Of a stretch of 64,000 bases of DNA, positions 36,731 through 60,683 are shown one piece after another (position 1 is the first letter of the stretch; every line of letters starts with the position of its first letter). The position numbers and the translations under genes were made by a program. The stretch is taken from assembly GCF_000003815.2 (NCBI RefSeq), contig NC_049983.1, positions 11,573,846 to 11,637,845 on the forward strand. Direction: 5' to 3'. The notes beneath the pieces are model-generated. The model was not told where the DNA came from. It saw only the letters and a program-made list of their open reading frames with translations, and made no database searches. This DNA comes from Branchiostoma floridae (taxonomy: Eukaryota; Chordata; Leptocardii; Amphioxiformes; Branchiostomatidae).

Positions 36731-36877
36731 TCATGCTTTTGATGAATTTGTGCACGAAACGTCGAGCTGCTCTGCACTGTCGGTAGGCGCCCGACAGAGG
36801 GCGCTGCCGTGCTCCCCCAGGCAGCAGTCCACGCACGGTTTGGTCTTCTGCTGGACCTGCCGCCGTCCTGTGGACAC
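36731..36877 (-). other. Receptor kinase last exon: Cys-containing C-terminal tail without tyrosine
   Basis: The exon starts in phase 0 with [10 protein letters not shown] and ends SSKA before TGA. It encodes 48 residues including a cysteine cluster, [14 protein letters not shown]. It contains no Tyr, so it offers no classical phosphotyrosine docking site. I know no family with this tail. Confidence 0.75.

Positions 36878-60683: not shown

Follow-up and report, generated by a model that had tools for sequence, protein, structure and literature searches.

A leucine-rich repeat receptor tyrosine kinase gene of Branchiostoma floridae, a probable amphioxus member of the ApLRRTK-type receptor class

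Introduction

Does the stretch C5:11573846-11637845 of the Branchiostoma floridae genome (64,000 nt, here called the window) encode one receptor tyrosine kinase (RTK) with leucine-rich repeats (LRRs), and is such a receptor an invention of the amphioxus lineage or the representative of an older class? An initial annotation had favoured an invention, namely a lineage-specific receptor made by joining an LRR/GCC ectodomain to an FGFR-type kinase. A receptor of similar description is known from the sea slug Aplysia californica. According to its 2014 description (PMC4200351), ApLRRTK (NP_001232922) consists of a signal peptide, LRRs (nine, eight in the figure legend), a GCC2_GCC3 region, a transmembrane helix and an FGFR-like kinase, which the authors placed with the FGFRs; in Aplysia neurons, the protein enhances FGF activity and stimulates neurite outgrowth and MAPK/CREB signalling. 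A paper of 2016 (PMC5176290) finds the ApLRRTK kinase no closer to FGFR than to RET and reports kinase orthologues in molluscs and Branchiostoma, which are said to share no extracellular homology with it, the joining of both parts being perhaps recent. This is the only published suggestion on the evolution of ApLRRTK that we found. Our literature search returned no description of the amphioxus receptor treated here, while the gene may already be contained in the amphioxus kinase survey of D'Aniello 2008. In the part seen, a paper on the holozoan kinome names LRRs with Trk only (PMC8662651), and the available parts of papers on the oyster kinome (PMC4883820) and on Trk evolution (PMC2772990) mention no such receptor.

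Results

Exon cores were chosen by eye among open frames and the splice sites then set by score. The resulting model comprises 26 exons on the minus strand, running from 60683 to 36731 of the window, and yields a single 902-residue frame whose stop codon ends at 36731. All introns are GT-AG and phases fit throughout; with the best-scoring donor and acceptor taken without regard to phase, 25 of 25 junctions were compatible, where chance would give one third (binomial p = 1.2e-12). The 26 exons with consistent phases described initially could therefore be recovered, and the claim of one protein holds in so far as the frame reads through to the stop, but its N-terminus is incomplete. Three donors are weak (exon 10, gtaatt; exon 18, gtcttt; exon 24, gtttgt), and those of exons 18 and 24 sit at intron positions common to the amphioxus FGFR and a TIE-like gene discussed below.

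Exons 1 to 11 carry one LRR apiece with phase-2 borders. The first exon seen (60615..60683, phase 2 in and 2 out) is followed by exons 2 (59468..59551), 3 (59096..59167), 4 (57582..57656), 5 (56950..57021), 6 (56530..56601), 7 (55622..55693), 8 (55400..55471), 9 (53597..53665) and 10 (53413..53484), and exon 11 (52895..52996) holds the last LRR. The intron between exons 8 and 9 contains an inverted repeat (54199-55075 of the window) with arms of 128 nt, 97% complementary, at 54199-54326 and 54948-55075; further inverted pairs lie inside it, and the whole looks like a transposon-like element.

Since exon 1 starts within the LRR block, the protein is incomplete at the N-terminus, with neither signal peptide nor LRR N-cap in the part seen. 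Immediately past the window the sequence turns into 3,487 N, and another 3,905 N occupy 88.5-92.4 kb. We scanned 60.7-104 kb by pattern, which comprises 3.3 kb at the end of the window and the adjoining 39.9 kb (7,392 N in the latter), and found no exon that could credibly encode an LRR, a Cys cap or a signal peptide: a pair of overlapping candidates (61.4-61.6 kb) and twelve loose pattern matches did not convince, and further matches were mostly simple repeats.

Other features of the window were read by eye. An NPAT-like neighbour gene, recognised from a conserved C-terminal peptide, occupies ~26200-34710 on the plus strand, two pieces of it being without Pfam match. Apparently head to head with it lies an acidic N-terminal exon resembling a gene of the Ariadne-2 (ARIH2) type at ~24130-24290 on the minus strand, of which 46 residues gave no Pfam match. 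Also on the minus strand, 3444-3833 is a frame with a protein kinase glycine loop resembling a NUAK-type Ser/Thr kinase, and a 205-residue frame at 10020-10637 looks like the last part of a reverse transcriptase protein from a non-LTR retrotransposon.

For the spliced protein, Pfam reports LRR_8 (3.6e-35, five stretches, for eleven LRR exons), Ephrin_rec_like, that is GCC2/GCC3 (9.2e-10, two stretches), and PK_Tyr_Ser-Thr (2.2e-88). The ectodomain order is eleven LRRs, an LRRCT-like cap, a Cys module, two GCC2/GCC3 modules and a stalk. The cap in exon 12 (52159..52334) has four cysteines in an LRRCT pattern by eye; the LRRCT model was not among the Pfam families at E <= 0.1, and the cap is called from this Cys pattern and from matches of 27-47% to frames elsewhere in the genome. 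Exon 13 (50792..50920) encodes a 45-residue Cys module with no Pfam match, into which only weak alignments from elsewhere in the genome extend (27-38%). The two GCC2/GCC3 modules correspond to exons 14 (49946..50098) and 15 (49131..49280), and exon 16 (48411..48467) forms a short stalk. The single hydrophobic stretch of the protein, residues 499-527, is the transmembrane helix, located with the start of the juxtamembrane segment in exon 17 (47792..47901). The ectodomain part seen contains 23 cysteines and eight N-glycosylation motifs, and within this part, which misses its 5' portion, no Ig family was found by Pfam at E <= 0.1. With the cap assigned by cysteine pattern, the domain list of the initial annotation is confirmed: about eleven LRRs, C-cap, Cys module, two GCC2/GCC3 modules, one transmembrane helix and a complete tyrosine kinase.

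The genome (513 Mb, 431 contigs) was searched with the block of cap, Cys module and GCC modules. Among the 53 matches, obtained from the best 150 of 371 candidates scored, the gene's own exons were found at 67-96%, and all others were weak cap or GCC matches at <=47%. Nowhere else in the genome was a close match of this kind found.

The cytoplasmic part starts with exon 18 (45097..45295), which holds the juxtamembrane Tyr554, the glycine loop and the catalytic Lys, and continues with helix C and LLGAC in exon 19 (43822..43932), the hinge and following helices in exon 20 (41979..42172), the twin activation-loop tyrosines Tyr738/739 in exon 21 (40451..40573) and WMAPE in exon 22 (39516..39589). 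Exon 23 (39170..39210) is followed by a phase-1 intron (TL/G), the C-lobe comprises exon 24 (38647..38743) and ends in exon 25 (37494..37611), and exon 26 (36731..36877) encodes a Cys-rich C-tail without tyrosine and the stop codon. Glycine loop, VAVK, helix-C Glu and APE are all present, as is QYYFKE. Since these motifs are intact, the kinase should be active, as far as can be predicted from sequence. Eight tyrosines are cytoplasmic, of which Tyr554 is the only juxtamembrane one.

By score, the kinase is closest to the FGFRs. The best 60 of 2,539 matching PDB sequences were 59 FGFRs (FGFR1-4) and one EGFR construct, which tops the list through the summed score of its two kinases. Among 28 other kinase domains, identities in score order were 50% for FGFR3, 49% for FGFR2, 49% for FGFR1, 48% for FGFR4 and 45% for RET, followed by two intronless amphioxus kinases and then VEGFR, KIT, CSF1R and TIE; PDGFRA aligned in part only, and EPHA2 reached 37.5%.

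Two trees were calculated, in which most reference kinase sequences were entered by hand and five were checked against PDB. The first had 29 rows; the second had 23, leaving out MET, INSR, EPHA2, SRC and five amphioxus single-frame kinases (L003, L004, L005, L007, L008) and adding three amphioxus kinases (FGFR, RET, TIE-like), the RET model after removal of a doubtful 17-residue extension at one exon end. In the first tree, a 100/99 branch parts INSR, MET, EPHA2, SRC, ROR, MUSK and Trk from an FGFR/RET/PVR/TIE side, on which the window kinase and the intronless amphioxus kinases fall; in the second, the branch to this side has 100/100. The window kinase does not nest with Eph in the first tree, in which EPHA2, the single Eph row, lies across the 100/99 branch. 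The branch of the window kinase is long (1.23 and 1.44 in the two trees, with a long-branch warning in the first), and the first tree places it, with weak support (48/78), beside the outgroup side. Neither tree unites it with the FGFRs or with RET at a supported node.

AU tests allowed several partners: an FGFR clade (p-AU 0.153 in the first tree; 0.415 in the second, or 0.185 with the human FGFRs alone), a RET clade (0.447 and 0.091), an FGFR+RET clade (0.421 and 0.258), a TIE clade (0.19 and 0.162) and, where tested, a PVR clade (0.23) and a clade with a pair of neighbouring amphioxus kinases, L001 and L002 (0.321). A clade with MUSK/ROR/Trk was disfavoured (0.0056), and one with Trk (NTRK) was rejected in both trees (1.9e-6 and 1.3e-6), in agreement with the earlier view that the kinase is not that of Trk. 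The kinase is thus a member of the FGFR/RET/VEGFR-PDGFR/TIE group, within which several partners are allowed. "FGFR-type", as it had been called, fits the scores but is too narrow, because the AU tests allow FGFR, RET, TIE and VEGFR/PDGFR alike and because the gene has an intron more than the amphioxus FGFR.

The kinase core contains seven introns, which we compared with those of three amphioxus genes. The FGFR-type and RET-type genes on contigs C4 and C3 were named by the identity of their HRD exons (83% to FGFR1 and 69% to RET, respectively) and by the second tree (83/63 with the FGFRs, 97/95 with RET). All six introns of the FGFR-type kinase have a counterpart in the window kinase at corresponding place and phase, although at the intron before GRLP the window kinase is one residue longer after the intron; the TL/G phase-1 intron is the one that the FGFR-type kinase is without. 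In the covered part of the RET-type kinase, all six introns are shared, TL/G included; for one of its exons the end may shift by 17 residues, which leaves the phase unchanged. In the TIE-like gene all seven kinase introns are shared. By gene structure, too, the kinase therefore belongs to the FGFR/RET/TIE stock, with the TL/G intron in common with RET and the TIE-like gene and not with FGFR. A Trk query served as rough control: its matches at 63-65% identity, which are of unassigned family, read through the intron positions ahead of HRD, and past it, in a single open frame (C8:17340426-17340662, query 2-80; C15:10934836-10935171, query 7-118). The TIE-like gene (C15:8364000-8391999, loci L025-L027) is multi-exonic, and its upstream frames resemble PAN, EGF, Ig and FN3 by eye; the window ectodomain has no match in this locus.

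A search with kinase exon 20 (22 of 22 candidates scored) returned, besides exon 20, three distant exons at 36-39%, located in the TIE-like, FGFR-type and RET-type genes. The best whole-protein matches elsewhere in the genome are single-frame kinases. Eight such loci were fetched, of which L001 and L003 were scanned by Pfam: LRRs were found in neither of these two, L001 has Ig, and L003 has EGF-laminin with an Ig-like match below the Pfam cut-off. L006 groups with ROR1 in the first tree, L002 has an N run where its ectodomain would lie, L004, L005 and L007 were viewed at their first residues only, and L008 was used as a tree kinase only. L001 and L002 are neighbours on opposite strands (C16:16.612-16.621 Mb) and 42-44% identical to the window kinase. 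By eye, ~100 of the ~150 matches listed (the best 150 of 618 candidates scored) are single-frame receptor-type tyrosine kinases; their frames span 400-1,055 residues, and many are arranged in tandem, on C12, C8, C7, C1, C4, C5, C17, C18 and other contigs (e.g. L003-L005 and L007). This set looks like a retroposed and then expanded family.

Discussion

We propose that the locus is probably the amphioxus member of an ApLRRTK-type receptor class, in which the order LRR, GCC and kinase would be at least bilaterian in age. We infer orthology from domain order and kinase placement as given in published descriptions: the kinase placement matches the account of ApLRRTK in PMC5176290, and the ectodomain has the ApLRRTK order. 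Since the same order occurs in ApLRRTK (PMC4200351), a lineage-specific receptor made by joining both parts in amphioxus, as initially suggested, is unlikely.

That the locus combines two neighbouring genes, one for an LRR/GCC protein and one for a separate kinase, is hardly credible. It is true that the intron between the transmembrane exon and the kinase is the longest of the model (~2.5 kb) and that the model is built from genomic sequence alone, but the frame runs from one part into the other with no in-frame stop, phases fit at every junction, the single transmembrane helix is located before the kinase, and the joined order recurs in Aplysia (PMC4200351); the view of one gene is upheld. 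A decayed gene is just as improbable: the three weak donors and the 5' part that was not found would fit it, but the 26 modelled exons are without stop or frameshift, and the kinase motifs that were checked are intact.

Two further readings we consider unlikely, though well above the former two. In one, the gene is a genuine paralogue of the FGFRs in which the Ig domains have gone and LRRs have been acquired, a reading not exclusive of membership in the ApLRRTK-type class. The FGFRs are the best matches, an FGFR clade passes the AU test in both trees, and the twin activation-loop tyrosines and the hinge EYA..GN are as in FGFR; however, the hinge letters also occur in TEK and the twin tyrosines in Trk and INSR, neither tree has a supported node with the FGFRs, the TL/G intron is found in RET and the TIE-like gene and not in the amphioxus FGFR, and amphioxus possesses a separate FGFR-type kinase gene on C4, as judged from its kinase part. 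In the other, amphioxus and Aplysia each joined an LRR/GCC ectodomain to an FGFR/RET-type kinase, which would render the receptor lineage-specific after all. LRR and GCC modules are common and open to independent shuffling, weak matches to the LRR cap and the GCC modules are scattered widely over the genome, the LRR count differs, and PMC5176290 reports that the kinase orthologues of ApLRRTK have no homology to it outside the cell. Such convergence requires, however, that an identical three-part order arose on two occasions, each time with a kinase of this group, and the kinase is reported to have a Branchiostoma orthologue (PMC5176290).

Returning to the ApLRRTK-type reading, the ectodomain found here suggests that the statement of no ectodomain homology, as worded in PMC5176290, does not hold. 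Our guess is that an incomplete Branchiostoma gene model explains the conflict, which is plausible for a gene that is split into many small exons and has an N run close to its 5' end. If, in contrast, the complete Branchiostoma protein of this locus had been used there, the ectodomains would be alike in domain type only. Whether LRR, GCC and kinase together constitute an RTK class of their own, on a level with FGFR, RET, TIE and VEGFR/PDGFR, that existed in the mollusc-chordate ancestor and was lost on the vertebrate line, we regard as an evenly balanced question. To our knowledge, the ApLRRTK-type class is missing from the vertebrate receptor set.

Onto the observed gene structure, domains, intact catalytic motifs and kinase group, a mechanism can be projected whose ligand class, dimerisation and signalling route are drawn by analogy from RTKs in general. 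A protein ligand or LRR-binding partner would contact the LRR solenoid, receptor dimerisation would follow, and the kinase would be activated by trans phosphorylation of Tyr738/739, as in FGFRs. Since the C-tail is without tyrosine, the output should proceed via the juxtamembrane Tyr554 or via a partner or docking protein, and the receptor's own docking capacity is predicted to be little. A role as partner receptor would fit the enhancement of FGF action reported for ApLRRTK from Aplysia data (PMC4200351).

If the locus is the orthologue of ApLRRTK, early bilaterians possessed the entire receptor class, and the suggestion of a possibly recent joining in PMC5176290 is wrong. Amphioxus would then be a chordate in which an ApLRRTK-type function could be tested directly, and in which ectodomain swapping on one RTK kinase core would become testable.

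Compared with known receptors, Trk (NTRK) likewise combines an LRR block and Cys cap with a receptor tyrosine kinase, but the window gene has many more LRRs as well as GCC modules, no Ig domain was seen in it, and its kinase is not in a Trk clade. Eph receptors have a GCC2/GCC3-like module in common with it, while the kinase is not nested with EPHA2. RET shares 45% kinase identity and the six introns seen in the amphioxus gene, TL/G included, but has a cadherin ectodomain and a single activation-loop tyrosine, both unlike the window gene, and no supported clade joins them. FGFRs (human FGFR1-4 and the amphioxus C4 gene) resemble it in 48-50% kinase identity, six shared introns, the twin activation-loop tyrosines, WEFP and LLGAC. 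They differ in having Ig domains where the window gene has LRRs, cap, Cys and GCC modules, and the latter has the extra TL/G intron, no supported clade with FGFRs and no C-tail tyrosine, which in FGFRs is the PLC-gamma site. With eight to nine LRRs against at least eleven in the window gene, and a function known for the Aplysia protein only, ApLRRTK shares, by its published description (PMC4200351), the LRRs, the GCC2_GCC3 region, the single transmembrane helix and a kinase of FGFR/RET affinity.
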